Assembly (NCBI RefSeq): GCF_030296835.1
Contig: NZ_AP027922.1
Location: 682,001 to 746,000, forward strand
DNA: 64,000 nucleotides
Direction: 5' to 3'
Source of the DNA: Pseudoalteromonas sp. MM1
GTDB lineage: Bacteria > Pseudomonadota > Gammaproteobacteria > Enterobacterales > Alteromonadaceae
In this document: positions 28,978-46,544 of the stretch, piece after piece
Numbering within the stretch: position 1 is the first letter of the stretch
Layout of the letters: each line of letters begins with the position of its first letter
Program-made: the position numbers and the translations under genes
Notes under the pieces: generated by a model
What the model was told of the DNA's origin: nothing
Database searches by the model: none
Seen by the model: only the letters and a program-made list of their open reading frames with translations

Positions 28978-29163
28978 ATTATCGTTTAGGTTAAAACGGC
29001 CTAAGTGCAGTGCCTTAAGTGATTTATTTGCAGGTGACTTAACTAAGCCAATCTATTAAGCTAAGCGGTTTACAAATTCAGGCCATATTTTTAAAACGGC
29101 CTGCAAAATAAGCGTTTCAACGTGAATAAGCGAACGCACTTCGCTATTAATAAAGGTTAATTT

Positions 29164-30540
29164 ATGTCTTGGTATTCTATATTACCGCCACTCATTGCTA
29201 TCGCCATCGTGTTTTGGCGCAAAGAAGTAATAATGGCACTTTTGGTGGCCGTGGCTTCATCAGAACTTTTACTCGCAATACAAGGCGAGGGTAATACCTT
29301 ATTTGCTACATTTTTAAATACCATTGAGCGCATAATATCGGTAGCCAGCTCGCCTGGTAACACCCGCATTTTAATATTTAGTATCATGATTGGTGCTTTG
29401 CTGGCCTACATACGCGAATCGGGCGGCGTAGCAGCCACCGTAAATATGCTAATGAACAAAGGCATTGCAAAAAGTAAGCGCCAAGTTGGCTTTTTAACCA
29501 TGTTTACTGGCATCGCAGTATTTATAGAATCAAACCTAAGTGTACTAACCTCAGGTATTGTATCGCGCGGCCTGTTCGATAAATTTAAAATGAGCCGAGC
29601 ACGCCTTGCTTACATTATTGATAGCACCAGTGCACCAGTATGTATTTTAATACTGCTTAACGGCTGGGGCGCATTTGTGCTGGGGTTACTTGGCAATTAT
29701 GAGCTAAGCGAATCGGCAGTTTCTATTTTATGGGGCAGCGTAGGATATAACTTTTACGCCATTATCACCTTAGTCATTGTGTTTTACACCATCGCGTTTG
29801 ATAAAGTACACGGCCCAATGAAAGAAGCCGAGCAAAAGCTAGAGCTGCAAAAAACCGACCTAAAAGAAGAAGTAAAAGGCTCTAAAGCGCGCTTTATGCT
29901 AGTGCCACTGCTTACCTTAATTGTAAGCATGGTAGGCTTTATGTTTTACACTGGTAACGGAGTATTAGCAGAAGGGAGCGGCTCTAAATCTGTTTTATAC
30001 GCAACGGTGCTTGCCATTATTGTTGCCTACATTTTAATGATCAGCTCACGCCAATTTACTCACCATCAATTAGTAGACACCGGCTTTAAAGGCATGGGCG
30101 AGCTATTACCATTGGTGAGCATTGTATTACTTTCACTTACACTGGGCGCAAGCTTAAAAGAGCTAGGCACCGGCGTATTTGTCGCATCGCTAGTAGGCGA
30201 CTATTTACCAATTTATTTAATTGTACCTGTGCTGTTTTTAACAGGCGCGGTTATGTCGTTTACTACGGGTACATCGTGGGGCACATTTGCCATACTCATT
30301 CCTATTGGCGTACCACTTATTCAAGAGCTTGGCCTACCGCCATCATTGGTAGTCGGCGCTATTTTGGGTGGTGGCATATTTGGCGATCACTGCTCGCCTA
30401 TATCCGACACCAGCGCCGTATCGGCACTCGCCTCGGGTTGTGACTTACTCACCCACGTTAAAACGCAGCTACCGTACGCGCTATTTGGCGGCGCACTCAC
30501 GTTTATAGCGTACTTAGTAACAAGTATCATTGTGTTATAA
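29164..30540 (+). CDS. NhaC-family membrane transporter
   Basis: This 458-residue inner-membrane protein has about 11-12 helices and is annotated in the family as a Na+/H+ antiporter. Recognisable blocks are FIESNLSVLTSGIVSRGL, DSTSAPVCILILLNGWGAF, TTGTSWGTFAILIPIGVP and GGGIFGDHCSPISDTS. AAAGGTTAA precedes the start. Its place 186 bases behind namZ and the serine hydrolase suggests that it may instead take up an amino sugar or peptide released from cell wall. That is inference; ion antiport is equally possible. Confidence 0.85.
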   Translation: MSWYSILPPLIAIAIVFWRKEVIMALLVAVASSELLLAIQGEGNTLFATFLNTIERIISVASSPGNTRILIFSIMIGALLAYIRESGGVAATVNMLMNKGIAKSKRQVGFLTMFTGIAVFIESNLSVLTSGIVSRGLFDKFKMSRARLAYIIDSTSAPVCILILLNGWGAFVLGLLGNYELSESAVSILWGSVGYNFYAIITLVIVFYTIAFDKVHGPMKEAEQKLELQKTDLKEEVKGSKARFMLVPLLTLIVSMVGFMFYTGNGVLAEGSGSKSVLYATVLAIIVAYILMISSRQFTHHQLVDTGFKGMGELLPLVSIVLLSLTLGASLKELGTGVFVASLVGDYLPIYLIVPVLFLTGAVMSFTTGTSWGTFAILIPIGVPLIQELGLPPSLVVGAILGGGIFGDHCSPISDTSAVSALASGCDLLTHVKTQLPYALFGGALTFIAYLVTSIIVL

Positions 30541-30573
30541 ACACATTTTAAAATAAGTCACTTTCAAACATTC

Positions 30574-30600
30574 AAAAGCCTGCTTAATCGCAGGCTTTTT
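30574..30600 (+). terminator. Terminator after the NhaC-family gene
   Basis: AAAAGCCTGC and GCAGGCTTTTT pair around TTAATC. It is almost identical to the terminator at 33625. Confidence 0.9.
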
Positions 30601-30629
30601 AATATTATACAATGCTTAATTAAACTGAA

Positions 30630-30673
30630 ATTATAGATGAATATCAGTTTATTAATATTATAGATGAATATCA
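30630..30673. repeat. Direct repeat ATTATAGATGAATATCA (two copies)
   Basis: A 17-base unit at 30630 and 30657 lies upstream of the LysM gene promoter. It could be a regulatory site or a trace of insertion. Confidence 0.65.
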
Positions 30674-30693
30674 TCCAATAGAGTTAAGCTAAA

Positions 30694-30722
30694 TTGACAT
30701 GGTGGGTTTGTCCTCGTATATT
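30694..30722 (+). promoter_or_regulatory. Sigma-70 promoter upstream of the LysM pseudogene
   Basis: TTGACA (30694-30699) and TATATT (30717-30722) are separated by exactly 17 bases. Confidence 0.7.
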
Positions 30723-30760
30723 TATGCCCATAATGGAATTTAAATATATTAGGAATAAAA

Positions 30761-31782
30761 ATGGTAAAGGAATACATTGTAAAAAAGGTGATACATTATG
30801 GGATATATCTTCTAAACACTTAGGGTCTCCAATGGAATGGCCTAGGTTATGGAAGTTTAATAACTGAAAAGAAGTTGTGGCTATTACTAATAAGCCTATA
30901 ACTAATCCCGACCTAATTTATCCAGGGCAAAAAATACTCATACCTTCTTTAGATATTTCTCAAATTAAAATCAAGCAAAATGCCAGAGCATTTAATACAG
31001 TTAATGAGTCTTCACAAAAACAACTCCCTAAAGTCACTTCGCCAATTTCATTAAGCTATAAGTTAGATGATATAAGACAACCTCCAATTGTACTCCCTAA
31101 TGCTATAGTGGAAATTAAAATGACAGGTAATATTGTTTTATCTAGTGTAGATAAATATCCTGTTAATTACGTAGTTAACGATAAAAAATTAGAGGCGACG
31201 GTAACATCTCAAGCTAATAAAGCTTTTGGAGCATTAATTAGTGAAACAAAATTAGCTTTCGACGAAAAAACTAAAAAGTTAACGCTTGGAACTAATATTG
31301 TCTCTAAGAGTACTACTCCAAACAGCCCAACTACATCACTGGGAATTGAAGTCACATCAAATTCACCAATACAAAAATTAAAATATGAAGTGCAGCTCCC
31401 TCAATTAAAAGGAAAAATTAATCAATTTAACTATATAGCTGAAAAAGTGTCGTTTGTTTTAGAAGTAACATTTACGGGCTCAGATGGTAAAAGTGCTAGA
31501 GAACATAACCCTGACAGTAGTGTATGGGATAAGCCTTTAGCTATAGGACTATTTGCTGGAGCTACATTAATTGTTATTGGTACTTTAGTAGAAGATTACG
31601 TCACATTAGGTGCAGGAGTCGCTGATGATCCCGCTGGTTTTGCTGCAGCTGCAGGGATGACCGCGAGGGGAGTTGTATTATGGGGTTCTGCTAGAGCAGT
31701 AGTTATTCCCGCTGTATTACCCGCAGTTGTTAGATTTAGCACTTCTATAGTCCCAGTCGCAACACTTAGACACGCCCATTAA
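30761..31782 (+). pseudogene. LysM-domain protein, broken by a frameshift and an in-frame TGA
   Basis: From the ATG at 30761 (AGGAA lies six bases before it) the sequence reads MVKEYIVKK, but a run of six A where seven are needed then shifts the frame. The next frame continues a textbook LysM (GDTLWDISSKHLGSP), meets TGA at 30865, and resumes as NPDLIYPGQKILIP. Two lesions thus split the peptidoglycan-binding domain. An open frame from a GTG at 30877 gives 301 residues. The remainder is a beta-rich region (residues about 80-210) and a hydrophobic, Gly/Ala-rich C-terminal part with two or three membrane-like stretches. The function of the rest is unknown; LysM plus a membrane-active tail recalls secreted toxins, which is only a guess. 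The frameshift, the stop or both could be sequencing errors, but two independent ones are less likely. Confidence 0.75.
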
Positions 31783-31796
31783 AAGAGGTTTATTTA

Positions 31797-32654
31797 GTGA
31801 GAATATTTTCAATTGTTTTTTTATTTTTTCTCAGTGGATGTACTTACTTAGAAAGTGCATCAGAACAAGCTAAGCGCTTAGGTAAAACATACCAACTAGA
31901 TATCCGAGCTGGCGATACTCGTTTATTTTTCCCTGAACAATTTTTAGGTGTTGGAGGCAATCCGCCTACACTTGAAATGGAAAGCACTTCTTTGGAGGAT
32001 TCTTCAGAGTCACTTGATGGTATTGAAACCGCGTTGGAGGTTTATCCTGAAGGCTTTGTTTCCAAATTTATTAATGCTATTTATATTTCAGGACCTATGC
32101 TTATAGAGGGGGCTGAAGCGGGGGGAACATATTCAAGAAATTTTATAATATTATCAAATATCTCAGATAAGAACGGTACTAACTTCAATTATGAAAATTC
32201 GTTACGGGGAGTTCATCACGAGCTTAGTTCTTTAATTTATTTACGCTCCCCTTTTGTTAATCTTGCATGGCAAGGTCTGTTGCCTGAAAGTTGGAGTCCT
32301 GCTTCCTCGAATTATGAGGCTTTAACGCAAGATAGAAGTATAGGGCCTGATTATGAAAATGGATTTTTATCTACCTACGGTAAAACTAATATTGAGAACG
32401 ACTTTAATATTTTCGCCGAATTTGCTTTTTCTGAGCCTGAAAAGCTACGAGACCTTGCAGCTAAGTATCCAACTATAGCTAAAAAGCTGAGTGTACTTAT
32501 TACTGCATATAAGCAGGTTCTTCCTGAATATCAGCAGGGCTTCGAAGAGTATTTCACTAATACGGGTTTAAGCGATGTTGCTATAAAACCTGATAATGTA
32601 GAGATTACAATCCACAGTGATTTTAGTAATATTAAGCCTCAAATAATTCACTAA
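31797..32654 (+). CDS. Lipoprotein with degenerate zincin-like motif
   Basis: The protein has 285 residues. The GTG start is followed by a lipoprotein signal, FLFFLSGC, with Cys15 acylated. A block GVHHELSSLIYLRSP is followed about 50 residues later by YGKTNIENDFNIFAE. The order HE..., then Y-x-x-x-N-x-E-x-D-F-x-x-F-A-E resembles gluzincin-type metallopeptidases, but the HExxH motif is HExxS here, so it may be catalytically altered or dead. It lies 14 bases behind the LysM pseudogene and should have been co-transcribed with it. I recognise no family with confidence. Confidence 0.6.
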   Translation: MRIFSIVFLFFLSGCTYLESASEQAKRLGKTYQLDIRAGDTRLFFPEQFLGVGGNPPTLEMESTSLEDSSESLDGIETALEVYPEGFVSKFINAIYISGPMLIEGAEAGGTYSRNFIILSNISDKNGTNFNYENSLRGVHHELSSLIYLRSPFVNLAWQGLLPESWSPASSNYEALTQDRSIGPDYENGFLSTYGKTNIENDFNIFAEFAFSEPEKLRDLAAKYPTIAKKLSVLITAYKQVLPEYQQGFEEYFTNTGLSDVAIKPDNVEITIHSDFSNIKPQIIH

Positions 32655-32855
32655 GTAAATTTAGTAAAGGGCTTATGTTTTACATATAGTCATGGTTCAT
32701 ACTTAAGATACTCCTCTGTTAAAGAAGCATAAATCGAATACTCTGAAGCAGCTTGTTATGTACCTTAAATCATTGTAATAGTAACTGTCTGGATTTCTCT
32801 ACGTAACTTTAAATGATATGATTTCACCAATTAAATAATAAATAAGGACATTTTT

Positions 32856-33566
32856 ATGGATATTATGATTGGTCAGCAAGCTCTTAAAAAGAAAAATCAG
32901 CTAACTCAGTTATCAGAGCGAGCAATCGGTCGAGATTTCAAAGAGCAAGCAGCATTAGCTATACAAATGACTCAATGCAGTGCAGCTGTTTATAGGAGGT
33001 TACAGCGCACTTACAAATCAACTGTAACGCCACGAGATGAAAAAAGAGTTAAAGCCGGAGGCTTGAGTACACAGTCAGTAACTTTTTCCACAAGTAATAA
33101 TAGCCAAAAATCTTTTAATAGCCTACTACCTGCAATGCGTGGAGGGAGAGCCGCACCAACTAATACTTCCAAAACATCCAATGATGTTGCCGTTGCTTCT
33201 AATCAACCACAAGCAGTTAATTTGTTAGCTTTATTACACCCTGTAATAAGCAGTGATATTATGAAAACAGGTAACGCAGTAGAAAAAACAGCTACTATAT
33301 TAGGACTGGTCACAACTACAGTTGGTTTTGTTGTTCCTGGAGGTGGAGCCGTATCCTCTATTGTTAGTTGGGTAGGCAGTGGCGCTACTTATTCAGGTTT
33401 CACTATGTCAAGAATACGTCCTGATGCGCCGGATAGAGCCTATCATCAATTAACTAACTACATTACGTGTTTAGCGGCTTGGAATAAAAAAGCGTGTGAG
33501 TTAATCGATATAGCTGATCCAAATGGACAATGGACTTTTCGGGATATTGAAAACGGATTCTCATAG
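32856..33566 (+). CDS. Protein of unknown function with central glycine-rich hydrophobic segment
   Basis: The protein has 236 residues and no signal peptide. The N-terminal third is polar and helical, and the middle (about 75-125) is a Ser/Asn/Pro-rich linker. Residues about 150-185 (TATILGLVTTTVGFVVPGGGAV and SSIVSWVGSGATYSG) form a glycine-rich hydrophobic hairpin, such as is seen in pore-forming or membrane-inserting proteins. The C-terminus is soluble with two Cys. I do not recognise it. It ends shortly before a terminator and shares the AT-rich composition of the preceding two genes. AAGGACA precedes the ATG. Confidence 0.6.
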   Translation: MDIMIGQQALKKKNQLTQLSERAIGRDFKEQAALAIQMTQCSAAVYRRLQRTYKSTVTPRDEKRVKAGGLSTQSVTFSTSNNSQKSFNSLLPAMRGGRAAPTNTSKTSNDVAVASNQPQAVNLLALLHPVISSDIMKTGNAVEKTATILGLVTTTVGFVVPGGGAVSSIVSWVGSGATYSGFTMSRIRPDAPDRAYHQLTNYITCLAAWNKKACELIDIADPNGQWTFRDIENGFS

Positions 33567-33624
33567 AGTTAAGGCTGAAAAGACAGTTTTAAATATTTTA
33601 TGAGGGGACTCTACTAAATATACG

Positions 33625-33651
33625 AAAGCCTGCTTAATTGCAGGCTTTTTT
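33625..33651 (+). terminator. Terminator closing the 30.6-33.6 kb accessory segment
   Basis: AAAGCCTGC and GCAGGCTTT pair around TTAATT and run into T. One loop base differs from the terminator at 30574. Confidence 0.9.
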
Positions 33652-33776
33652 GTTTTAAATATGCAGTTAAGTACCCGTATTTATATTTTTTAGGTTATTG
33701 TATGGCATGAGCTTTAAGCTTTTTAATAGCTATAAATTCTTACTTTTTAACTTATACAAGGCTGTAAACCCACACT

Positions 33777-35519
33777 ATGTTTGTAATAGATAATATCATT
33801 CTTGTTAGTGCCATTTTAATTTTACTAGGGGTTATCTCGAGTAAGCTATCTGCGCGCGTTGGCTTACCCGTGCTGGTGCTATTTTTACTGGTGGGCATGC
33901 TTGCAGGTGAAGACGGTATTGCCGGCATATCATTCGATAACGCAGAGGCTGCGCATGCTCTGGGCACCCTAGCACTGGCTATTATTCTATTTGATGGTGG
34001 GCTACAAACGCCAACCAGTTCAATTAAACAAGTGTGGAAACCTGCTTCGGCTTTAGCAACGGTCGGGGTGCTTTTAACGGCTGTAATTACCGGCCTTGTC
34101 GCCACTTATATTTTAGACTTACCCGTATTACAAGGCGTTTTACTGGGCGCTATTGTGGGCTCTACAGATGCCGCTGCCGTATTTGCACTTTTACGAAGCG
34201 CCGGTATTCACTTAAATAAAAAACTTAAATCAACCCTTGAAATAGAAAGCGCCTCGAACGACCCAATGGCTATTTTTTTAACGGTTGGTTTGCTCGAAAT
34301 GCTAGTGAACAACATGCCAATAGGGCTGGGTTTACTGCAGTTATTTGCCCAGCAAATGGGTGTAGGCGCCGTTTGTGGGTTTTTAATTGGTAAGGTGTCG
34401 GTGTGGTTTATTAATCGAATAAAATTAAATGCATCAGGTTTGTATTTAGTAATGGTAACCGCATTTGGGCTGCTTTCTTTTGGCCTTTCTGCAACGCTTG
34501 GCGGCAGTGGCTTTTTAGCTGTATTTATAACAGGCGTTATTTTAGGTAACAGTAAATTTGTATATAAACGCGGCATTTTTCTGTTTCACGATGGTTTAGC
34601 GTGGCTTGGGCAAATAACCATGTTTGTTGTGTTAGGGCTTTTAATTAACCCCTCGTCTTTGGTTGATGTATGGCTAGAAGGGTTACTGATTGCACTGGCA
34701 CTTATTTTTGTTGCTCGCCCACTAGCGGTAGCGCCAATTTTAAAATTATTTGGCTTTAATAATCGCGAAACTTTATTTGTATCTTGGGTGGGGCTAAGAG
34801 GCTCTGTGCCGATTATTTTAGCTATATTCCCACTGTTGTTTGGCCTTTCAGGGGCGGAGCTTATTTTTAATGTGGTTTTTTTCGTGGTGTTAATCTCGGC
34901 CACGTTGCAAGGCTCAACTATGCCTTGGATGGCTAAAAAGTTAAGTTTAATAGAGCCGCCACCCGATTTAGCAGCTGCAACGCTCGAAATTACCGCCTTA
35001 AATGATATTGATATAGAAATTGTAGAGTACACGTTAAGTGAGGTTTCTCGGGTTTCTGGGCGCAGTTTGTCACATGCTGCGCTACCAGAAAGTGTAGTTG
35101 TAGCCATGATCACACGAGGGCCATCAATCATACCGCCACGCGGCTCAACTAAATTAAAACCAAACGATCATTTATTTGTTGTTTTAAAACCCGCTAACAG
35201 ACCTTTTGTTGATTTAGTTTTTACAGCAACCGATAAAACAAACCACCAAGACAGTCACTTAGCGCGCAACGAACTTAAAGTGAAAGGGGTTACGCTAGTA
35301 GGCGATATATTTTACTCATATCACATGAAAATAGACGCCCCTGAGGGCATAAGCTTGGAAGAGGTGATCAACCAAAAGCTTTCAGGAGAAATCAGTAAAG
35401 GCTCAATTGTGGTTATTGGTAATGTTCAACTACGCGTTATAACAATGGTACATACACGTATAGTGACCATCGGCTTAAAATACTTACACAATCCAGAACA
35501 ACGACTTTTAAAGCAGTAG
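33777..35519 (+). CDS. cvrA: K+/H+ antiporter, CvrA/NhaP2 family
   Basis: This cation/proton antiporter has 580 residues. About 12 hydrophobic helices occupy residues 1-390, with family blocks FLLVGMLAGEDG, LFDGGLQTP, GAIVGSTDAAAVFALLR and ASNDPMAIFLTV. The cytoplasmic part contains a TrkA-C-like segment (SLSHAALPESVVVAMITRG) and a C-terminal CorC-HlyC-like domain, matching NhaP2/CvrA, which exports K+ at high internal levels. Its start is weakly marked. The gene separates the accessory segment upstream from the reverse transcriptase downstream. Confidence 0.92.
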   Translation: MFVIDNIILVSAILILLGVISSKLSARVGLPVLVLFLLVGMLAGEDGIAGISFDNAEAAHALGTLALAIILFDGGLQTPTSSIKQVWKPASALATVGVLLTAVITGLVATYILDLPVLQGVLLGAIVGSTDAAAVFALLRSAGIHLNKKLKSTLEIESASNDPMAIFLTVGLLEMLVNNMPIGLGLLQLFAQQMGVGAVCGFLIGKVSVWFINRIKLNASGLYLVMVTAFGLLSFGLSATLGGSGFLAVFITGVILGNSKFVYKRGIFLFHDGLAWLGQITMFVVLGLLINPSSLVDVWLEGLLIALALIFVARPLAVAPILKLFGFNNRETLFVSWVGLRGSVPIILAIFPLLFGLSGAELIFNVVFFVVLISATLQGSTMPWMAKKLSLIEPPPDLAAATLEITALNDIDIEIVEYTLSEVSRVSGRSLSHAALPESVVVAMITRGPSIIPPRGSTKLKPNDHLFVVLKPANRPFVDLVFTATDKTNHQDSHLARNELKVKGVTLVGDIFYSYHMKIDAPEGISLEEVINQKLSGEISKGSIVVIGNVQLRVITMVHTRIVTIGLKYLHNPEQRLLKQ

Positions 35520-35744
35520 CCATTACCAATGATTTATAAGATATTAGCGAAGTAGATTGGGTTGAGTGACACGAAACCCAACGAAAACTAGCGGTAGCCT
35601 CTAAAAACTATATCATTGGGCGTGCTGGCACAATGATAATCATGCGATTTTTCTAAGCAGCAATTGACGACTATGAAGCTAAGAAATTTCTGTCTTAGGC
35701 GGTTTCAGGTAAACTAACTATATGAAATATACAAAGGAATGTTT
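35520..35744. other. Region upstream of the reverse transcriptase gene
   Basis: These 225 bases contain a seven-base inverted repeat (TTGGGTT 35557-35563 with AACCCAA 35575-35581) of a kind I recall as dispersed in gammaproteobacteria. One frame reads like a coding remnant (ETQRKLAVASKNYIIGRAG, ending at a TAA near 35655), with a TGA just before it. The segment could also encode a structured template RNA for the downstream enzyme, but I cannot show this. AAAGG at 35733 is the ribosome binding site of the next gene. Confidence 0.4.
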
Positions 35745-37400
35745 ATGAGCCAGATTTTTGGTGATACAGATGATAAAAGGGCTTTATATGAGGCTCTCAC
35801 TAGATACAACTATTTTCCAAATCAACGAGCTAATATAGGTGAGTTACCACCGAGTCTTGATACAAGGCAATTTACGCCAGAAGTAGCTGAAGAGATTGCT
35901 AAACTTGAAGAGATAAGAGGTAGGCGTAAATCTGGCTACGACTTAGTTGAATATAAAGCGACAAGATATAATAATGTGCCTAGAGTACTGGGGCTTGTCC
36001 ATCCTAAAGGATATTCATTACTAGTAAAGTGTATACATGACAACTGGGAACATCTGAAATGTGTTACTGAGAACGAAAATAGTATAATTAAGCCTGAGTT
36101 TCACCAAAGTGAAAAGCGATTGGTTGTAATGAATTATGAAGAGCCATTCGTAAAAATTAGTCGATCGCATAGCTCTTCTTTTGCAAAGCGATATAGAGTG
36201 CATGCAGATATAGCTAACTGCTTTAATAGTATTTATTCTCACTCAATTGCATGGGCTGGTGTTGGTATCCAGGAGGCTAAAACTCAGCAAGATGATAAAC
36301 GCACTTGGTTTAATGCTTTAGATATGTACCAATGTAAAACTAAGCGTAATGAAACTCAGGGAATACCAATAGGTTCGGCAGCTTCTAGTATTGTGAGCGA
36401 GTTAATCTTAGGAAAAATTGATGGAGCCTTAAAAAGTAAAGGTTATGTGTTCCATAGATACATTGACGATTATACTTGCTATTGCGTGACTAGCGAGGAC
36501 GCTCAAAACTTCATTCAAGATTTAGCCAACTCTCTCGCTATTTATAAGTTAACACTAAACTTAAAGAAAACATCAATAATAGAATTACCAGCAGCTTTTG
36601 AAGATGAGTGGGTGCTAGATTTAAAAAGTGCATTACCAAGCCGTTTAGGTAGCGCAGGAGAAAACGAGCCAAAAATTTCTGCTGACGAAGCACTTACGTT
36701 TTTAAATAAAGCTATTGGAATTAATAAAAGTACGCCAGATGGAAGTGTATTAAAGTATGCAATATCATTAATCATTAATTACTTAGATGAAGATGCTAAT
36801 GTAAGTTTATTGGAAGCTCTTTTGAACCTTGCTTGGCATTATCCAGTTTTACTTCCATTATTTGACAAATTATTAGGCAAAGTAGAGATAAATGCAGGGA
36901 TTTTCGAGCAACAATTAAATGTAATAATACAAGAAAATGCTGATAAGTTCAGGTCTGATGGCATGTCTTGGCCTCTCCATACAATGTTAACTAATAACGT
37001 CATACCAAAAAAGGAAACTGCTGAAAAGGTCATTGCGAGTGGTGATTGCGTCGCAATTACTTTGCTACTAGAGATGCATGACTTCAACGCAATGATAGTT
37101 GAATTTGCGAATACTATAATTGCTGGTGATGATAACTATGAAAAAGATAGTTATTGGCTATTACTTTATCAATTATATCTAAAAGACCTGTTAATTGATG
37201 AACCTTATACTGACAAGGTATTTCGTTGTTTAAAAAAACATAAGGTTAATTTTATACCCCGAAATACGAAAACTAAAGCTGAAATAAACTGTGATAAAAT
37301 TCAAAGTGAAATGACATCAAATGCGTTAAAAACCGTATTTTCAGAAGTGACTATACCTGCTGTAAACAAAAATCCAGATGAAGATTCGGCTGTCTTCTAG
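35745..37400 (+). CDS. Reverse transcriptase of the Abi/UG (defense-associated) class
   Basis: This RNA-directed DNA polymerase of 551 residues starts at the ATG at 35745 (AAAGG seven bases upstream; an ATG at 35739 is too close to it). Motif A is ADIANCFNSIYSHSIAWA (catalytic Asp155), motif B QGIPIGSAASSIVSEL (from 205) and motif C Y239-I-D-D. LNLKKTSIIELP completes the palm. The phrase PKGYSLLVKCIHDNW before the palm and FNSIYSHSIAWA are features I associate with Abi/unknown-group reverse transcriptases, including anti-phage DRT proteins, not with group II introns or retrons. Residues about 300-551 are all-helical and unrecognised, as in AbiA/AbiK-type proteins. It stands alone between an antiporter gene and an anti-sigma gene, and no partner was seen. 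The subtype cannot be assigned by eye. Confidence 0.82.
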   Translation: MSQIFGDTDDKRALYEALTRYNYFPNQRANIGELPPSLDTRQFTPEVAEEIAKLEEIRGRRKSGYDLVEYKATRYNNVPRVLGLVHPKGYSLLVKCIHDNWEHLKCVTENENSIIKPEFHQSEKRLVVMNYEEPFVKISRSHSSSFAKRYRVHADIANCFNSIYSHSIAWAGVGIQEAKTQQDDKRTWFNALDMYQCKTKRNETQGIPIGSAASSIVSELILGKIDGALKSKGYVFHRYIDDYTCYCVTSEDAQNFIQDLANSLAIYKLTLNLKKTSIIELPAAFEDEWVLDLKSALPSRLGSAGENEPKISADEALTFLNKAIGINKSTPDGSVLKYAISLIINYLDEDANVSLLEALLNLAWHYPVLLPLFDKLLGKVEINAGIFEQQLNVIIQENADKFRSDGMSWPLHTMLTNNVIPKKETAEKVIASGDCVAITLLLEMHDFNAMIVEFANTIIAGDDNYEKDSYWLLLYQLYLKDLLIDEPYTDKVFRCLKKHKVNFIPRNTKTKAEINCDKIQSEMTSNALKTVFSEVTIPAVNKNPDEDSAVF

Positions 37401-37551
37401 TTTTTATAGAGTATTATTTAAAGCTTTTGTTAATGAAGGTGAATAAAGTTAGCTATGTAGTGATTTTTCCTCTGTGCAGTGCGAAGCGCCTCTGTGTTCT
37501 CGGTGGTAATATTTATCTAAATTACCACCAACATTAACTGAGCTAAACCAC
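37401..37551. other. Intergenic region after the reverse transcriptase
   Basis: The segment includes CTCTGTGCAGTGCGAAGCGCCTCTGTG-like repeated CTCTGTG words (not written further), seen here twice, and no gene. No clear terminator was found. Confidence 0.35.
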
Positions 37552-38175
37552 CTAAGCCCCACAACTCCTAACCCCAACTCCCGCATGTTTTAGCGCTATT
37601 ATCTGCCCTTTACCGTTATGTGCCATAGCGAGCATATCACCGGTATTTATATTACTTTCTACCGCGTGCCTTCCCTTTAAATCACTTAAGAGCGACTGCT
37701 TAATTTGTACCAGTACTTCGTCATTACAGCTGGCTATGTACCAGTCGTTATCGACCTTTACGAGCGTGCCGTATTCTATGTGGCGTTGTTGGTGTAAGCG
37801 CAGGTTATTAGCATGTTGCGTGTCGAGTGCATGTTTTTGCTCGGTAATGGCACTTGTATAACTGCCCGATGGGGTTATTTCGTGGGTTTTAATAATTGGG
37901 AAGTCGTGAATGTCTATAGTCTTAAATGAGCTGTTAAGCACGGTTTTTGGCGCGTGGTTAATACCATTGCTGCTATCAAACACAATAAATGCGAACACGC
38001 TCAGTGCACAGGCGAGGCTGGCAAGTTGTAGTGTAAAGCCGAACTTTTTAGGCTTTGTGCGTGTGGCTTTATTAAGTAACGCTTTTTGCTGCGAAGCAGT
38101 GAGCGCAGTGCGTGCTTTTCGCTCTTTATAGTGTTGTGTGAGCTTTTGGTCAAACTGCTCATCAGGCTTGTTCAT
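37552..38175 (-). CDS. Putative anti-sigma factor (membrane protein)
   Basis: The protein has 207 residues. A charged cytoplasmic N-terminus (about 1-48) is followed by one transmembrane helix (LQLASLACALSVFAFIVF) and a periplasmic domain of about 130 residues with two Cys (ASCNDE and VRSCGA). It overlaps the ECF sigma gene by 14 bases, the usual sigma/anti-sigma arrangement, which is the main support; the sequence itself is not a recognisable zinc anti-sigma. The N-terminal helix ARTALTASQQKALLNKA would contact the sigma factor. It is probably released by envelope signals, which is inference. Confidence 0.7.
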   Translation of the reverse strand: MNKPDEQFDQKLTQHYKERKARTALTASQQKALLNKATRTKPKKFGFTLQLASLACALSVFAFIVFDSSNGINHAPKTVLNSSFKTIDIHDFPIIKTHEITPSGSYTSAITEQKHALDTQHANNLRLHQQRHIEYGTLVKVDNDWYIASCNDEVLVQIKQSLLSDLKGRHAVESNINTGDMLAMAHNGKGQIIALKHAGVGVRSCGA

Positions 38176-38716
38176 TGTTTGCTCCTAATAAACGTTTAAG
38201 GTTTTGTTTGGCGTAGCGCAAGCGTGTTTTTACGTTCTCATGGTTGCTTTGGGTTATAAGCGCTATGTCGGCAAGGCTAAAGCCTTCTTGTTGTAAGGTA
38301 ATGGCTTCGCGCTGTACAAAGCTTAGTTGTTTAAGTGCATTATCGAATGCTTGGTAACTTATATTGCTTTGCTCATTTTGCTGCGCGGGTAGATGAGTGT
38401 TTTCGTCAAGTTCTACAAAGCGCTGCTGTTTGCGGTATTCGTCTACTAATGTGTTGCGCGCAAGTTTAAATAACCAGGCTTTTGGCGTGGTTTGCGCTTG
38501 GTAAAGGTGGCGTTTTTCGATTACCTTTAGCCACGTTTGTTGGCTTACGTCGTATGCTAAATGTGTATTAGATTGCGTTACTAGGTAGTGATATAAATCG
38601 TTACTGTATAAGGCAATAAGCTGCTCTAAGTGACGATTGTCGCCACTTTTTGCGTAACTTGCCATGCAATCCTTGCTTGGCGTTTCAAATAACCATGATT
38701 TAATACTAAGTAGCAT
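38162..38716 (-). CDS. ECF-type RNA polymerase sigma factor
   Basis: This extracytoplasmic-function sigma factor has 184 residues. Region 2 (LIALYSNDLYHYLV through TTPKAWLFKLARNTLVDEYRKQ) and region 4 (LSFVQREAITLQQEGFSLADIALITQSNHENVKTRLRYAKQNL, split here) are both present with a short linker. It lies 14 bases behind a tonB gene and overlaps the anti-sigma gene. The set may respond to an outer-membrane or TonB-linked signal. No target promoter motif was found. Confidence 0.9.
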   Translation of the reverse strand: MLLSIKSWLFETPSKDCMASYAKSGDNRHLEQLIALYSNDLYHYLVTQSNTHLAYDVSQQTWLKVIEKRHLYQAQTTPKAWLFKLARNTLVDEYRKQQRFVELDENTHLPAQQNEQSNISYQAFDNALKQLSFVQREAITLQQEGFSLADIALITQSNHENVKTRLRYAKQNLKRLLGANNEQA

Positions 38717-38730
38717 AGGCGTTTAGTCCG

Positions 38731-39366
38731 TTAAATAGAGTTATCTAATTTAAAATCGAGCTGTACGGTTTGACCTGTTTGTAATTGTGCCACACCTTCA
38801 ATTACTTTGGGGCGATATTTCCAGCGTTTAATGGCTCTTATTGCTTCGCGGTCAAAGGTGCGTTTTGGCTCTGCGTTAATCACTACTGGGTTTATTACTT
38901 CGCCGGTGGGCGAAATGCTAAAGCTAAGTTGTACCCAACCTTCAATGCCATCGCGAGCAGCAGACGTTGGGTATTTAGGGTTTATGCGTACTATGGGCGT
39001 TGCATCTCCCGTAGGGCGGTTAATGGTGCTATTGATATCATCACCAAAATCGTCAATAGTGACCGGCATTACTTCGTTTATAGCAATTACAGGGTCGTTT
39101 GCGGTATCTATTGGTGGTGCCTTAGGCGGTGTTTTTGGTACCGGCGGTGGCGGCTGTATTTTTGGTTTTTGATTTACTTGTGAATCCTCTGGGACTTGAA
39201 AAATCTCTACAATAATATCGCCGCCGGGTTTAATAGGTGCGCGCTGCTCGCCAGATATTAAATATTGCATAAACGCAAAAGCCGCAAAGGTCATTACTGC
39301 GCCGCCAATTACGGCGGTTGATGTTTTAATAAATGCTGAGTTATTGGGTACTTCAAGTGTGTGCAT
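38731..39366 (-). CDS. tonB: TonB-family energy transducer
   Basis: TonB couples the proton gradient to outer-membrane receptors. The protein has 211 residues. There is one N-terminal membrane anchor (TAVIGGAVMTFAAFAFMQYL), then a proline-rich spacer (PKIQPPPPVPKTPPKAPP), then the C-terminal TonB domain with YPTSAARDGIEGWVQLSF and FDREAIRAIKRWKYRPK. The His in the anchor helix of classical TonB is not seen, which is common in this marine TonB2-like group. It heads a probable operon with the ECF sigma and anti-sigma genes. No exbB/exbD are nearby, so they must be elsewhere. Confidence 0.9.
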   Translation of the reverse strand: MHTLEVPNNSAFIKTSTAVIGGAVMTFAAFAFMQYLISGEQRAPIKPGGDIIVEIFQVPEDSQVNQKPKIQPPPPVPKTPPKAPPIDTANDPVIAINEVMPVTIDDFGDDINSTINRPTGDATPIVRINPKYPTSAARDGIEGWVQLSFSISPTGEVINPVVINAEPKRTFDREAIRAIKRWKYRPKVIEGVAQLQTGQTVQLDFKLDNSI

Positions 39367-39511
39367 AAGCCGCTCCGAGTAAACTTATTTGGGTTATTTA
39401 AAAGCTATAACGGGGGGCAAATCAAAAAGGGGTTAAATAGTTTTATAAAAATTGCGGGGTTTAGTTACAATAGCGTTTTGTATTCTTTTACTTATAAATT
39501 TTTAGGCTGTT

Positions 39512-40018
39512 ATGCAACTCATACAAATAGATAAAGCACGTTACCGCAAGCATTTAAATCGGGTAATTGCAGGTTGTGCGGCGGGTTTGGCTGTTGGCAG
39601 CTTGGCGATATCGCAAACATTAATTGCGCTATTTCCTGATGAAAGCGGGAGCCATTTTCATTGGAATTTAACCGGTGTTGTTATAACCAGTTTAGCCATT
39701 GGCTGGCTGTTAAATAAATACCGTACCCATAGTTTTATGACCGAAGTAGTGTACGTGTGGGAGCTAAAACAAGCGCTTAATAAAATAACCCGCAAAATGC
39801 CAAAGCTAAAAGCGGCAGGGCGCGAGGGCAATGCCGATGCACTGTTAGCGATTCATTATAGTTATGCGGGCTCGCGGCTTTTATGGCAGCTTGACGATAA
39901 CACCATCACCATGGACGAGTTAGCTATAAAACAAGCAGAGCTTGATAGTGTGGCAGCCAAGTATAACCTGACTTTAAATGCCGATGACTATAATGAGTCT
40001 ATATTAAAACAGTTTTAA
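39512..40018 (+). CDS. DUF3087-family membrane protein
   Basis: This 168-residue protein of the uncharacterised DUF3087 family has two transmembrane helices at the N-terminus (VIAGCAAGLAVGSLAISQTL and LTGVVITSLAIGWLL), then a soluble helical domain with ALLAIHYSYAGSRLLWQLDDNT. It is divergent from tonB and 24 bases before a phosphatase gene, likely co-transcribed with it. The function is unknown. Confidence 0.82.
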   Translation: MQLIQIDKARYRKHLNRVIAGCAAGLAVGSLAISQTLIALFPDESGSHFHWNLTGVVITSLAIGWLLNKYRTHSFMTEVVYVWELKQALNKITRKMPKLKAAGREGNADALLAIHYSYAGSRLLWQLDDNTITMDELAIKQAELDSVAAKYNLTLNADDYNESILKQF

Positions 40019-40042
40019 GCCTAGGGTGCTAAAGGAGCCTTT

Positions 40043-40492
40043 ATGAAAAAAGTACTTATAGTGTGTTTAGGTAATATTTGCCGCTCGCCAACAGCAGAGG
40101 CGGTGTTAAAAGCGCGCGCTAAAAAATTAGGTGTAGAGGTAAAAGTAGACTCGGCAGGGACTATTGGTTATCACGAAGGTAAAACACCAGATAGCCGTTC
40201 AATGGCTGCGGGGGAAAAACGCGGTTATAGCTTTAAAGGAATTTTTTCGCGCCCAGTGCGCAGCAGCGATTTTACTGAGTTTGATTTAATTTTAGCAGCC
40301 GACACACAAAATTTAGCTGACTTAAAAGCAAAGTGCCCAGCGCATTTACATTACAAGCTGGCATTGTTTTTAGAATACGGCGAGCAAAGCCAAAGCGCCA
40401 TACCCGACCCATACTACGGCGGCGATGACGGCTTTGAAAATGTGCTCGATTTAATAGAAGCCGCCAGCGATAAAATACTCGCAAAGCTTTGA
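40043..40492 (+). CDS. Low-molecular-weight protein-tyrosine-phosphatase
   Basis: The protein has 149 residues. The phosphate-binding loop Cys8-LGNIC-Arg14-S is at the N-terminus and the general-acid motif DPYYGGDDGFENV is near residue 119, both exactly placed for this family. Such enzymes act on tyrosine kinases of capsule export or on arginine phosphate; no kinase or polysaccharide genes are nearby, so a housekeeping role is likely. AAAGGAGCC is a strong ribosome binding site. Confidence 0.95.
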   Translation: MKKVLIVCLGNICRSPTAEAVLKARAKKLGVEVKVDSAGTIGYHEGKTPDSRSMAAGEKRGYSFKGIFSRPVRSSDFTEFDLILAADTQNLADLKAKCPAHLHYKLALFLEYGEQSQSAIPDPYYGGDDGFENVLDLIEAASDKILAKL

Positions 40493-40537
40493 ATAAAACT
40501 ACCTGAACAAAAAAGACGCGATTTAATACCTTGCGTG

Positions 40538-41650
40538 TTATCTGGCTATTTTAAAGTCGAGCTGTACTTGTGTACTTGCAACTACAGGTTGGCCGTTTTC
40601 AAATTTTGGTGCATAACGCCATTTTTTAAGTGCGCTAAGTGCCGACCTTTCAAACTCTTTACCCCCTTGTGAGCTAACTACCTCTGGGTTTTTAACAAAG
40701 CCTGCGGTATCTACGTCAAATTCAACAACCACTATGCCGTCTCGCATTTGGCGCGCTTTGTTTTGTGGGTACTCAGGGTTTTCACGGTATATGGGTGTTT
40801 GCTCTTGTGTTTCTTTCCACGGCACCATTTTAGCAATTGCTAAACAATGCTTGGTGGCTTGCTCACTTTGACCCGTTTTTTCGTAAAGGTTAACAAGCTT
40901 TGAGTGCGCAGTAAGCTCAGCGCTGTGATCAAAGCTTAAGTTGTTATCAAATACCGATACAACATGGTTTAGTCGTTCAATGGCTTCATTGTATTTTTTC
41001 TTACCTTGAGCAAACGACGCCATTAAAAAGTCGGCTTTAATGCGCTCTACGGTGTTGTTGTCTAGGTTATTACGGTAGTAGTCATCGGCTTGGTTAAGCA
41101 GTGTTTTAGCTTTATGGTATTTTTTATGAGCAAATTTTTTGGCTAGCAATGAGGCTGCTTCAAACTGCATGTCGGCAACAAATTTAGGGTTGTTTTGCGC
41201 TTTAGCTATTTTAATAACACGGTCGTAATCGTTATCTGCTTGATAGGCTGAGTCAGTGTTTTCTGCTTTGCCAATTAGCGCATCGATTGTTTCTATTGCA
41301 TTTTCACCGTGGTTACTTGCCAGTATTGAATAGGCTTGCGAGTACAGCTCGTAACGCATTTCGGTTACATTTTTTTTGCTGCTTATTGTGCGTGGCGCTG
41401 TAATTGCTTTGGCATAATTAATAGCAAGGCTTGCGGTGTTATCACTTTTGTCACCATAAAACAAAAGCCCCGTAGTGTAGGCTAGTTTGGCAGCTTGCTC
41501 TATATTTTCTTCTTTTTTTACAGCCGTTAAATAACTTTGGTATGCATCAGAAAAGGCAGCTTTATCATCGTTTACTTGGCTTGCTTTGGTCTGGCTTGCA
41601 AAAGCCGTAAAGGTTAATCCTATTACTAAGGCGAGGTGTTGTGCTTTCAT
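40538..41650 (-). CDS. Secreted protein with helical repeats and C-terminal TonB domain
   Basis: The 370-residue protein has an N-terminal signal peptide ending in ASQTKA (residues 1-23) rather than a membrane anchor with a proline-rich spacer. About 250 residues of helical, TPR-like repeats follow (blocks such as AAKLAYTTGLLFYGD and EATKHCLAIAKMVPW). The last 85 residues are a TonB C-terminal domain (YPQNKARQMRDGIVVVEFDVD to LSALKKWRYAPKFENGQP, split here). Lacking the anchor, it cannot transduce energy like TonB itself; it may scaffold receptors in the periplasm. It is convergent with the phosphatase gene. Confidence 0.8.
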   Translation of the reverse strand: MKAQHLALVIGLTFTAFASQTKASQVNDDKAAFSDAYQSYLTAVKKEENIEQAAKLAYTTGLLFYGDKSDNTASLAINYAKAITAPRTISSKKNVTEMRYELYSQAYSILASNHGENAIETIDALIGKAENTDSAYQADNDYDRVIKIAKAQNNPKFVADMQFEAASLLAKKFAHKKYHKAKTLLNQADDYYRNNLDNNTVERIKADFLMASFAQGKKKYNEAIERLNHVVSVFDNNLSFDHSAELTAHSKLVNLYEKTGQSEQATKHCLAIAKMVPWKETQEQTPIYRENPEYPQNKARQMRDGIVVVEFDVDTAGFVKNPEVVSSQGGKEFERSALSALKKWRYAPKFENGQPVVASTQVQLDFKIAR

Positions 41651-41979
41651 AATAATCCCTATTAGTGTTCAATCTAGAAACAAAATACCACAAGTGAGAA
41701 TAGTAGTCATTATTGTTTATGCGCTTTGCTTTTACATTAATAAGCTCAAAACACAATTGTGAAGTAAATTTAAAATAGCAAAGCAGAGTGTGGTTGTCAC
41801 CTTTTTAGGTAAGTGCAGTGGCTGTTCAAAGCGGTATTTTTATTACGAGTAAATATTGAAAACAGTGGCTGCCGTCGCCATATATTTGCCATAAACTATG
41901 TTGTACTACGATCTAAATTTAAACGTTTGTGATATTATCACCTCATGGTGTCGTAGTTATTTAATTATTTGGATTTGTC

Positions 41980-42603
41980 GTGGCGCAAGTAAGAGCAAGA
42001 GCCCAGCTAAATGTTGGCAAAAATAGTGATATTCCCGCAGAGATAGTGTCTTTTAGTGGCTTAAAAGACGGCCAAGAACACGTTGCGTTTGTATTTAATA
42101 ATGCTGATGTAAATCAAAATGTGCCGCTTATTCGCATGCACTCTGAGTGTTTAACCGGTGATGTGTTTCATTCATCGCGTTGCGATTGCGGCGAGCAGCT
42201 AAACGAATGTATTGAAATGATGCACGAACAAGGCGGCGTGTTATTGTATTTACGCCAAGAAGGCCGTGGCATTGGTTTATATAATAAAATTGACGCTTAC
42301 GTGCTGCAATCACAAGGTATGAACACCTACGAGGCTAACAATCACTTAGGCTTTGCTGATGACTTACGTGATTTTTCGGATGCGGTATTAATGCTTAACG
42401 CACTTAATTTAAACCACGTTAAATTAATGACCAATAACCCTAAAAAGCTTAATGCATTAAAAGATGCGGGCATTGAAGTAGACACGGTTATTGGCACCCA
42501 TGCGCACATTAAAGCAGGCCTTACAGGTAACAAAGCGTACCTAGAGACCAAAATAAAACATGGCGCGCATATGTTAGATATTAAAAAAATTAAAAAACCT
42601 TAA
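41980..42603 (+). CDS. ribA: GTP cyclohydrolase II
   Basis: RibA opens GTP to 2,5-diamino-6-ribosylamino-pyrimidinone phosphate, the first step of riboflavin synthesis. Zinc ligands are in [18 protein letters not shown], followed by [15 protein letters not shown] and the late [12 protein letters not shown]. At 207 residues it is the stand-alone form, not fused to RibB. The start is GTG with TTGGA upstream. No FMN riboswitch is seen in the preceding 300 bases. A terminator follows. Confidence 0.96.
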
Positions 42604-42637
42604 CTATTTAATCATGTAGTGTCTGTTAATCCCCCCT

Positions 42638-42664
42638 CACGCCAAGTTATACTTGGCGTGTTTT
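42638..42664 (+). terminator. Rho-independent terminator after ribA
   Basis: CACGCCAAGT pairs with ACTTGGCGTG around TAT and is followed by TTTT. Confidence 0.85.
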
Positions 42665-42683
42665 GTTTAATCTAAGAGCCAGT

Positions 42684-43472
42684 ATGTCTAACGAGTTACG
42701 AATTTTTAAAGCCGATGCCGGGCTAAAGTGGTTTAAAGCCGGTTGGCATATTTTTAAAACCCAGCCATTTACCTTTGTAGTTATGCATTTATTAATAGGC
42801 ATAGTGGGCTTACTGTCGTTATTTTTACCTTTACTGCAAGTTGTTGCAGCTCTTGCTACGCCTTTTTTAACCGCTGGTTTTTATCAAGCGGTACTTAGCA
42901 AGCAGCAAGGCGGTAAAATTATGCTGGCCGACATACTTAAACCTTTTAGCGCAAAAGGTAACCGTTTAGGGCTGCTACGTTTAGCGCTTTACCAAATGGG
43001 AGCGGGTATTTTAATGGCCTTGTTAGCCAATAGCTTATTTGCTGATGCCGTGGCTATTATGAGCCAAGAGGGGCTTGATCCTAACATTGCGCTTGAGCAA
43101 ACCTTAAATAGTATTTCGAGCGCAAGTGTAGTGCTATTTTTAGTGGCAATGGCGGTGTATTTAATGGCGTTTGCTTACGCGGTACCGCTGATTTATTTTA
43201 GTAAAGAAAAACGCATTTTAACGGCGCTTAAAAATTCGTTACTGGTTTTTTATCATAACCTGTTCGCATTGAGTGTTTTTGGTATTATTTGTGCGTTATT
43301 TATGGCGCTTTCTATGTTCTTATCGTTCTTACCGCTGTTGATTTTAATGCCAATTTGCTACATTAGTTTCTTTGTATCTTATCAGGCTATTTTTATGCCA
43401 GTTGTACCGCCAAGTGGCGATAGTAATGTTAAACCACTTAGCAGTGAACAAAGCGGGCGCTTTGACGCTTAA
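42684..43472 (+). CDS. BPSS1780-family membrane protein
   Basis: This 262-residue integral membrane protein has about six helices in three pairs: after a cytoplasmic start (GLKWFKAGWHIFKTQPFTF) come PFTFVVMHLLIGIVGLLSLF, then LGLLRLALYQMGAGILMALL and further pairs. The N-terminal pattern matches the uncharacterised BPSS1780 family. The ATG at 42684 is chosen since the earlier in-frame TTG (42663) lies in the ribA terminator. It ends one base into recX, so the two are coupled. Confidence 0.8.
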   Translation: MSNELRIFKADAGLKWFKAGWHIFKTQPFTFVVMHLLIGIVGLLSLFLPLLQVVAALATPFLTAGFYQAVLSKQQGGKIMLADILKPFSAKGNRLGLLRLALYQMGAGILMALLANSLFADAVAIMSQEGLDPNIALEQTLNSISSASVVLFLVAMAVYLMAFAYAVPLIYFSKEKRILTALKNSLLVFYHNLFALSVFGIICALFMALSMFLSFLPLLILMPICYISFFVSYQAIFMPVVPPSGDSNVKPLSSEQSGRFDA

Positions 43473-43924
43473 TGGATGATAAGTTAAAACAAAAACTCAA
43501 AAACTATGTACTGTGGTTACTTGGGCGCCAAGAGTATTCGCGCCGCGAGTTAACCTTTAAGCTTCAACAAAAAGAAGCCAGCGATGAGTTTATAGAAACC
43601 CTGCTTAATTGGTGCGAAGAGCACAATTTTATTAACGAGCAACGCTATTGCGAAGGGTTTGTCAGAAAACACATTTTTAAAGGCCATGGCTTAAAGCGCA
43701 TTCAAAGCGAAGCCATAGGCAAAGGGATTGACCGTTCACTACTTGAAAGAGTGGTTGAAGAGCTTGAAATAGACTGGTTTGAGCTTGCGCAGGAAGCGTA
43801 CAACAAAAAGTATTCCACTACACCGGCAAACCTCGAGTACAAAGATAAAGCCAAGCGCGTGCGCTACTTAATGTACCGAGGATTTAGCTACGATGAAATT
43901 GATTTTGCAATGCAAGCACAGTAA
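43472..43924 (+). CDS. recX: Regulatory protein RecX
   Basis: RecX modulates RecA filaments and limits recombinase and SOS activity. The 150-residue protein shows the tandem three-helix repeats: WLLGRQEYSRRELTFKL, then FINEQRYCEGFVRKHIFKGHGLKRI and the last YLMYRGFSYDEIDFAM. It begins at the final base of the preceding membrane-protein gene and lies 19 bases before alaS. recA, which usually precedes recX, is not in this window. Confidence 0.92.
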   Translation: MDDKLKQKLKNYVLWLLGRQEYSRRELTFKLQQKEASDEFIETLLNWCEEHNFINEQRYCEGFVRKHIFKGHGLKRIQSEAIGKGIDRSLLERVVEELEIDWFELAQEAYNKKYSTTPANLEYKDKAKRVRYLMYRGFSYDEIDFAMQAQ

Positions 43925-43943
43925 ATACAGGTGAGATTTTCAC

Positions 43944-46544
43944 ATGCAGCACATGACTACGGCACAACTTAGGCAACAGTTTTTAGACTTTTTTGCCAGC
44001 AAACAGCACCAAATTGTCCAATCGGCTTCACTTATTCCGGGTAACGATGCCACCTTGTTATTTAACAATGCGGGTATGGTTCCTTTTAAGGATGTGTTTT
44101 TAGGCGCAGAGACTCGCCCTTACACGCGTGCTACAAGTGCACAGCGTTGTGTGCGTGCTGGTGGTAAACATAACGATTTAGAAAACGTAGGTTACACAGC
44201 GCGTCATCATACATTTTTTGAAATGCTAGGTAACTTTAGTTTTGGCGATTACTTTAAACAAGACGCTATTAAGTTTGCGTGGGAGTTTTTAACTGAGGTT
44301 GTTAAATTACCACAAGAAAAACTACTTGTTACTATTTACCACGACGATGAAGATGCATTTGGCTTTTGGCACAACGATATTGGCCTAAGCGAAGATCGTA
44401 TTATTCGTATTGCTACCTCAGATAACTTTTGGTCAATGGGTGATACTGGCCCGTGTGGCCCATGTTCTGAAATATTTTACGATCACGGTGAGCACATTTG
44501 GGGTGGTCCTCCGGGCTCGCCTGAAGAAGATGGCGACCGCTTTATCGAAATTTGGAACCTAGTATTTATGCAGTACAACCGTCAAAGCGACGGTACTATG
44601 GAGCCACTGCCTAAACAATCTGTTGATACAGGTATGGGCCTTGAGCGTATTGCTGCCATTTTACAAGGTGTGCATTCAAACTACGAAATCGACTTGTTTC
44701 AAGGCTTAATTGCAGCTGCGGCAAGCGTAACTAACGCACAAGACATGAACGATAAGTCACTTCGCGTAGTGGCTGATCATATTCGTTCGTGTGCGTTTTT
44801 AATTTCTGATGGTGTTATGCCATCAAACGAAGGCCGTGGTTATGTACTTCGTCGTATTATTCGCCGTGCTGTTCGCCATGGTAACAAGCTTGGTGCACAA
44901 GGCGCGTTTTTCTACAAATTAGTAGCTGCGCTTATTGAGCAAATGGGCCAAGCCTATCCAGAGCTTGCAAAGCAGCAAGAGATTATCGAAAAAGTACTAC
45001 GCATCGAAGAAGAGCAATTTGGTAAAACACTTGAGCGTGGCTTAGCTATTTTAGAAGAAAGCCTAAGCGAGCTTAAAGGCGATGTTATTCCTGGTGACTT
45101 AGTATTTAAGCTATACGACACCTATGGTTTCCCGGCTGACTTAACAGCCGATGTAGCCCGTGAGCGCCAAATGACAATAGACCATGCAGGCTTTGAAGAG
45201 TGCATGGCTGTACAGCGTAAAACAGCGCAACAAGCTGGTAAGTTTGGTGCAGATTACAACGAGCAATTAAAATCAGAAAAACACACTGAGTTTAAAGGCT
45301 ACGACAGCACACATCACAGCGCTACAGTAGTAGAAGTGTTTACAAATGGTGAGTCGGTTTCTATTTTAGAAGACGGCCAACAAGGCATTGTTGTACTTAA
45401 CCATACGCCATTTTACGCTGAATCGGGCGGTCAAACAGGCGATACTGGTACCATTACTGTTGCAGGTGGCGAGTTTAGTGTAACTAACACTACTAAGTTG
45501 GGTAATGCTTTTGCACACCACGGTACTGTACAAGGGCGCATTGCAGTTAACGACAAAGTAGATGCAACTATTGATGATGCACGCCGTGAACGCATTAAAA
45601 AAAATCACACAGCTACGCATATTTTACACGAAGCACTGCGCCAATTATTAGGTGAACACGTAAGCCAAAAAGGCTCGCTGGTTGAACCTGAACGCTTACG
45701 TTTTGACTTCTCGCACTTTGAAGCCGTCACTAAAGATGAGCTACGTGAAATTGAGCGTGTAGTTAACGATGAAATTCGTCGTAACTTTGCCCTGAACACT
45801 GAGCTTATGGCGATTGATGATGCTAAGGCAAAAGGGGCTATGGCGCTGTTTGGCGAAAAGTACGACGATGAAGTACGCGTAGTAACCATTGGCGATTACT
45901 CAATTGAGCTATGTGGTGGTACGCACGTAGAGCGCGCAGGCGATATTGGTTTATTCAAAATTGTATCTGAAAGCGGTATTGCTGCAGGCGTTCGCCGTAT
46001 TGAAGCGGTAACCGGGGCAGATGCAGTAGCCTATGTGAGCGAGCAAGAAAAACAACTTAACGATGTAGCGGCGTTGGTAAAAGGTGATAGCGCATCGGTA
46101 CTTGAAAAAGTAACAGCGCTTCTTGAAAAGTCTAAAGGCCTGGAAAAGCAAATTGCACAGCTTAACGATAAACTAGCCAGTGCAGCGGGTGCGTCTTTAC
46201 TTGATTCGATTGTTGAAATTAATGGCGTTAAGCTATTAGTGGCAAACGTTGAAGGAACTGAATCTAAAGCGCTTCGTGGCATGGTTGATGACCTTAAAAA
46301 CAAGATTGGCTCAGGTGTTATTGCACTTGGCGTTGCCAGTGGAGAGAAAGTGAGCTTAATTGCCGGTGTAACGAAAGATTTAACCGGTAAAGTTAAAGCC
46401 GGTGAGCTTGTGAACCACATGGCTTCTCAAGTAGGCGGTAAAGGGGGCGGTCGTCCTGATATGGCGCAAGCGGGTGGTTCACAGCCTGAAAACTTAAACG
46501 CCGCGCTTGATAGCGTAACAGCTTGGGTAACAGAGAAAGTTTAA
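43944..46544 (+). CDS. alaS: Alanyl-tRNA synthetase
   Basis: The class II synthetase of 866 residues charges tRNA-Ala and edits mischarged Ser and Gly. The catalytic domain shows [15 protein letters not shown] and [11 protein letters not shown]. The editing domain has the zinc ligands HTATHILH (near 553-560) and [11 protein letters not shown]. The C-terminal coiled-coil/C-Ala region ends with [22 protein letters not shown] lies before the ATG at 43944; a second ATG is nine bases later. It is followed six bases later by lysC. Confidence 0.97.

Follow-up and report, generated by a model that had tools for sequence, protein, structure and literature searches.

A DRT4 (UG15) reverse transcriptase gene in a variable site of the Pseudoalteromonas sp. 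MM1 genome

Introduction

A 64,000-nucleotide window of the Pseudoalteromonas sp. MM1 genome (contig NZ_AP027922.1, positions 682,001 to 746,000, forward strand) contains an intact gene at window positions 35745..37400 (+) whose 551-residue product is a reverse transcriptase (RT) of the DRT4, or UG15, class. We are highly confident that this gene, drt4, is a working single-gene abortive-infection system and that it forms exchangeable cargo of a slot next to a sigma/anti-sigma gene pair. The gene itself is a clear, intact and otherwise ordinary addition to an already known kind. A preliminary description had proposed a lone anti-phage RT of the Abi/unknown-group (UG) type, situated between core genes.

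A commentary (PMC13213688) and a review (PMC13314766) describe DRT4 as a one-gene system whose product, primed by a conserved tyrosine, is random single-stranded DNA synthesised without a template; when the phage protein ORF55 protects the 3' end of this DNA from exonuclease, toxic single-stranded DNA accumulates. Class-1 UG RTs are described as fusions of an RT with a helical alpha-repeat domain, and DRT4 is counted among the hexameric RTs, in a further report (PMC13174585). The same layout, together with template-independent, tyrosine-primed DNA synthesis, is attributed to AbiK and Abi-P2 in another paper (PMC9508834).

Results

The class of the protein is set by profile scores that agree across databases. 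The NCBIfam Drt4 equivalog (NF041749) matches residues 15-505 of the 553-residue longest reading at 694.3 bits, against a cut-off of 450, and the PADLOC profiles (best 25 of 67 families) are headed by Drt4 at 758.8 bits, followed by Drt6 (288.9), UG30 (181.6) and AbiK (126.6). Assignment to DRT6 (UG12) was rejected on this difference. An RT palm is present, as a Pfam RVT_1 match indicates, and a palm is what group II intron, retron and diversity-generating RTs would have in common with this protein. There is nevertheless next to no chance that it belongs to one of these kinds, which the profile scores and the fold rule out. For the group II RT/maturase equivalog the score is 55.5 bits where the cut-off is 300, and the palm tree separates the two; the St85-family model, the sole one for retrons among the NCBIfam matches listed at E <= 1, scores 36.5 bits against a cut-off of 235.

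In the palm tree the gene lies beside the DRT4 rows and joins three of them on a starred branch (99/97); the forks that hold 8 and 10 DRT4 rows are weaker (82/99 and 80/76). The tree comprises 27 rows, with RT loci L004, L008, L018, L020-L022, L024, L025 and L027-L031 left out. Its labels Drt4, Drt6, AbiP2, Drt3b, Drt8, RT-Cas1 and UG17 derive either from PADLOC scans or from whichever model had detected the locus; L080 was named Drt4 by sequence inspection and L081 stands without an assignment. The label "GII" marks rows that we take to be group II RTs from the PADLOC general RT model and known motifs.

The predicted structure leads to the same class. An AlphaFold2 model with a mean predicted local distance difference test (pLDDT) score of 90.0 superposes on the solved DRT4 structure 9vdo at 1.7 A over 490 residues, with 45% identity, and shows an RT domain followed by a helical domain with the DRT4 fold. 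The likeness to the solved DRT4 enzymes (PDB 9vdo, 9vdv, 9l9s, 9ltm and 21ou) extends to whole-length homology, fold, catalytic residues and the apparently single-gene arrangement; by contrast, the last ~20 residues here are disordered in the model and fall outside the aligned part. The C-terminal half is all-helical, its helices lying within residues 288-531 (36606..37337, +), and it aligns to 9l9s up to residue 531. The preliminary description was thus right to call this half helical and wrong to call it unrecognised, since this is the helical domain that AbiK, DRT4 and DRT6 possess. More distant are DRT6/UG12 (PDB 9wy8), at 22% identity and 289 rather than 759 bits, and AbiK and Abi-P2 (PDB 7r06 and 7r08), which have an RT-like domain and a helical domain in common with the present protein at 18-19% identity; AbiK primes from its Tyr44.

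The catalytic motifs are intact and, numbered from start 35745, lie where the preliminary description had placed them: Asp155 (codon 36207..36209, +), QGIPIG at residues 206-211 and YIDD at residues 239-242 (36459..36470, +). A homologue search recovered 443 proteins at E <= 0.001 among 7998 scored, and 116 of the 120 listed were aligned with the MM1 protein (P0004, P0005, P0019 and P0021 were left out). D155, D241 and D242 are invariant in all 117 rows. Candidates for the priming tyrosine are Y131, Y164 and Y475, which are tyrosine in 117 of 117 rows, and Y23 and Y243, which are tyrosine in 116; at each of the positions Y65, Y70 and Y75, some rows have phenylalanine. The ratio of nonsynonymous to synonymous divergence (dN/dS) between drt4 and its three same-genus orthologues is 0.081-0.136, the synonymous divergence (dS) from the orthologue in G067 being 2.2 and near saturation. 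The gene is under purifying selection and, because of this ratio and the 443 matching proteins, is not a chance reading frame. The orthologue in G031 (L047:1768-3348, +) has a frame change near its C-terminus, at about residue 517 and beyond the conserved core, from which its tail differs.

These data bear on whether the gene has lost its defensive role and is now silent or co-opted for another cellular function. No other defence gene stands at the site or among the neighbours in MM1, as might be expected in that case. The intact frame and motifs, the low dN/dS, the patchy presence of the gene and the other defence genes found in the same slot all argue against such a loss, which we regard as very improbable.

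The longest open reading frame (ORF) at the locus starts at ATG 35739 and encodes 553 residues. A ribosome-binding-site-like AAAGGA (35733..35738, +) directly abuts this ATG and lies 6 bases 5' of ATG 35745. Among the first 11 homologues displayed, 8 have a start equivalent to 35745 or no residues ahead of it; a longer start was deposited for 4 of the 12 homologue rows displayed (P0001, P0003, P0006 and P0007). ATG 35745 looks the better start, because of the spacing from AAAGGA and the starts of most displayed homologues. Scans for promoters (8 found, 7.9 expected from shuffles) and terminators (1 found, 1.1 expected) yielded no excess. The G+C content falls to 33-37% within the gene. A palindromic intergenic motif, TTGGGTTGAGTGACACGAAACCCAA, occurs at 35555-35582, 3' of the upstream antiporter gene, and recurs in the corresponding position in G031 and G007.

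No Rfam family matched around the gene, in a search that an RNA within the gene or outside Rfam would escape; the result is in keeping with a system free of noncoding RNA. Upstream similarity to G070 extends over only ~35 bases, and none of the neighbouring genes resembles a partner.

To the left, drt4 is preceded by a gene for a sodium/proton-exchanger family antiporter with a TrkA_C domain (33777..35519, +; Pfam PF00999 and PF02080). To the right lie a presumed anti-sigma factor gene (37552..38175, -), which has no Pfam match and is named from its position, and the adjoining gene for a sigma factor of the sigma-70 family in which just regions 2 and 4 are present (38162..38716, -; PF04542 and PF08281), presumably of the extracytoplasmic function type. 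There are no tRNA genes within 28000-44000, and no integrase was seen among the scanned proteins, although no profile search was aimed at integrases. Further upstream, three ORFs of 301, 285 and 236 residues (30877-33566) lie between a gene for a 458-residue transporter-like protein and the antiporter gene and have no Pfam match at E <= 0.05; the 285-residue ORF has relatives in G070 and G015.

A drt4 gene at 74-89% identity is present in 3 of 118 relatives, and the anti-sigma gene adjoins it in all three. G020 carries a distant DRT4 (38% identity) elsewhere on its contig. A split DRT4/DRT6-like gene in two frames is found elsewhere in G038 (L008 and L022, G038:C35:136793-138020). The gene is therefore absent from most relatives, and other genes occupy the same slot. 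In agreement with the preliminary description it is apparently a single gene, as DRT4 systems are; the placement between core genes holds only in part, since the antiporter is itself patchy (its 3' end has a DNA match in 8 of 79 genomes, MM1 included) and the cargo of the site is exchangeable. The two relatives whose antiporter genes are most similar over a long match (~97% DNA identity), G037 and G008, have a KAP gene instead of drt4. Of 50,697 phage records, none was matched by tblastn at E <= 1e-30; among 72,556 plasmid records there was a single match, on a 1.3-Mb replicon of Pseudoalteromonas piscicida at 60.6% identity, where no features are annotated.

The slot, defined as 35520 to 37551 of the window with equivalents in L040-L048 and L086-L101, was read in 26 of 72 same-genus genomes, MM1 included; the sample is not random, the genomes having been chosen by flank similarity or by presence of drt4. 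A defence gene or candidate stands beside the anti-sigma gene in 14 of the 26. DRT4 occupies the slot in four (MM1, G031, G070 and G067), and a KAP nucleoside triphosphatase (NTPase) matching the PADLOC candidate PDC-S20 in five (G037, G008, G010, G046 and G057). The KAP gene of G008 is interrupted, and in G010 a partial anti-sigma copy and a gene resembling those for chemotaxis receptors lie between the KAP gene and the full anti-sigma gene. Other occupants are NACHT and RelA-like genes in G038 (from Pfam; the PADLOC matches are weak) and, in G032, a set of three genes that includes one for a RES-domain protein. In G019 the slot holds a UG17 RT and its SLATT partner; G020 has a type IV retron RT accompanied by its 2TM partner, and G005 a dGTPase with BstA. 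One gene of the G032 set is presumably of the "sce7726" kind.

Among the remaining genomes, G007 was considered as a virgin empty site and rejected: just the first codons of a KAP gene, read by eye, precede the anti-sigma gene, and the slot is therefore a relic. In G052 there is an NTPase of 816 residues ~850 bases away, and its matches to defence genes are weak. G006, G012 and G025 have a slot gene of ~250 residues, with no PADLOC match in the two of the three that were scanned; in G001, G030, G060 and G068 the gap lacks any ORF of at least 110 residues, and in G026 the slot reaches the contig end. Two genes directly beside the anti-sigma gene, of 265 residues in G049 (L089:946-1743, +) and 278 residues in G015 (L086:878-1714, -), have no PADLOC match. 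Near the slot of G015, an ORF matching Pfam TseH, a type VI secretion effector (L086:2408-3049, +), is followed by a 117-residue lipoprotein-like ORF.

Discussion

The profiles, the match to a solved structure and the palm tree all point to DRT4, so that the class and function given in the preliminary description were right; its Abi/UG-type assignment is narrowed to DRT4/UG15, and an anti-phage role is to be expected by analogy with that class. Neither of the outcomes that it had named as contrary to its proposal, a group II intron or diversity-generating placement and presence at the locus in all relatives, came about. From homology to characterised DRT4 enzymes, the protein would assemble as a hexamer, and one of its own tyrosines would prime the polymerisation of random single-stranded DNA, for which neither a template nor a noncoding RNA would be needed. 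In the uninfected cell an exonuclease would clear this DNA. Upon infection, a phage DNA-binding protein would guard its 3' end, and the resulting build-up of DNA would arrest growth of the cell and limit phage spread. By this analogy a hexameric state is very likely, there is good reason to expect random, template-free single-stranded DNA as the product, and a phage DNA-binding protein is a reasonably likely trigger.

A different outcome for the same family would be a protein-set, non-random product, or a trigger unlike ORF55. Class-1 DRT3b makes an ordered repeat without a nucleic acid template, as stated in PMC13174585, and the MM1 protein shares only 45% identity with the DRT4 enzymes that have been studied. 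The Drt3b PADLOC profile, however, scores 110 bits against 759 for Drt4, and the class-defining match is to DRT4 throughout; we consider such a departure improbable. Two points do weigh against a working DRT4 system carried as exchangeable cargo, at least in its particulars. The solved enzymes are 45% identical to this protein, a distance at which the trigger and the phage range may differ. In addition, the somewhat lower dS of drt4 in comparisons with G031 and G070 (0.504 and 0.605, against 0.675-0.969 for flanking genes in the same pairs) does not separate a recent gain from long residence with exchange.

We read the slot as a fixed site at which cargo is exchanged, the direction of the last swap not being settled. 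On balance we favour a broader proposal, in which the position directly 3' of the sigma/anti-sigma pair would serve throughout the genus as a defence hotspot, one that has neither a tRNA gene nor a seen integrase. Small modules of one to three genes would be swapped there by recombination between conserved flanks, with DRT4 and the KAP NTPase as the two occupants that recur. The unrecognised slot genes, such as those of 265 residues in G049 and 278 residues in G015, would then be candidate new defence genes.

The gene is one well-placed addition to DRT4, a family whose chemistry, the synthesis of template-free, self-primed DNA, has already been described. The site is more useful than the gene, in that the sigma/anti-sigma pair would act as a marker for defence cargo in the genus and could serve a position-based search for new defence genes.
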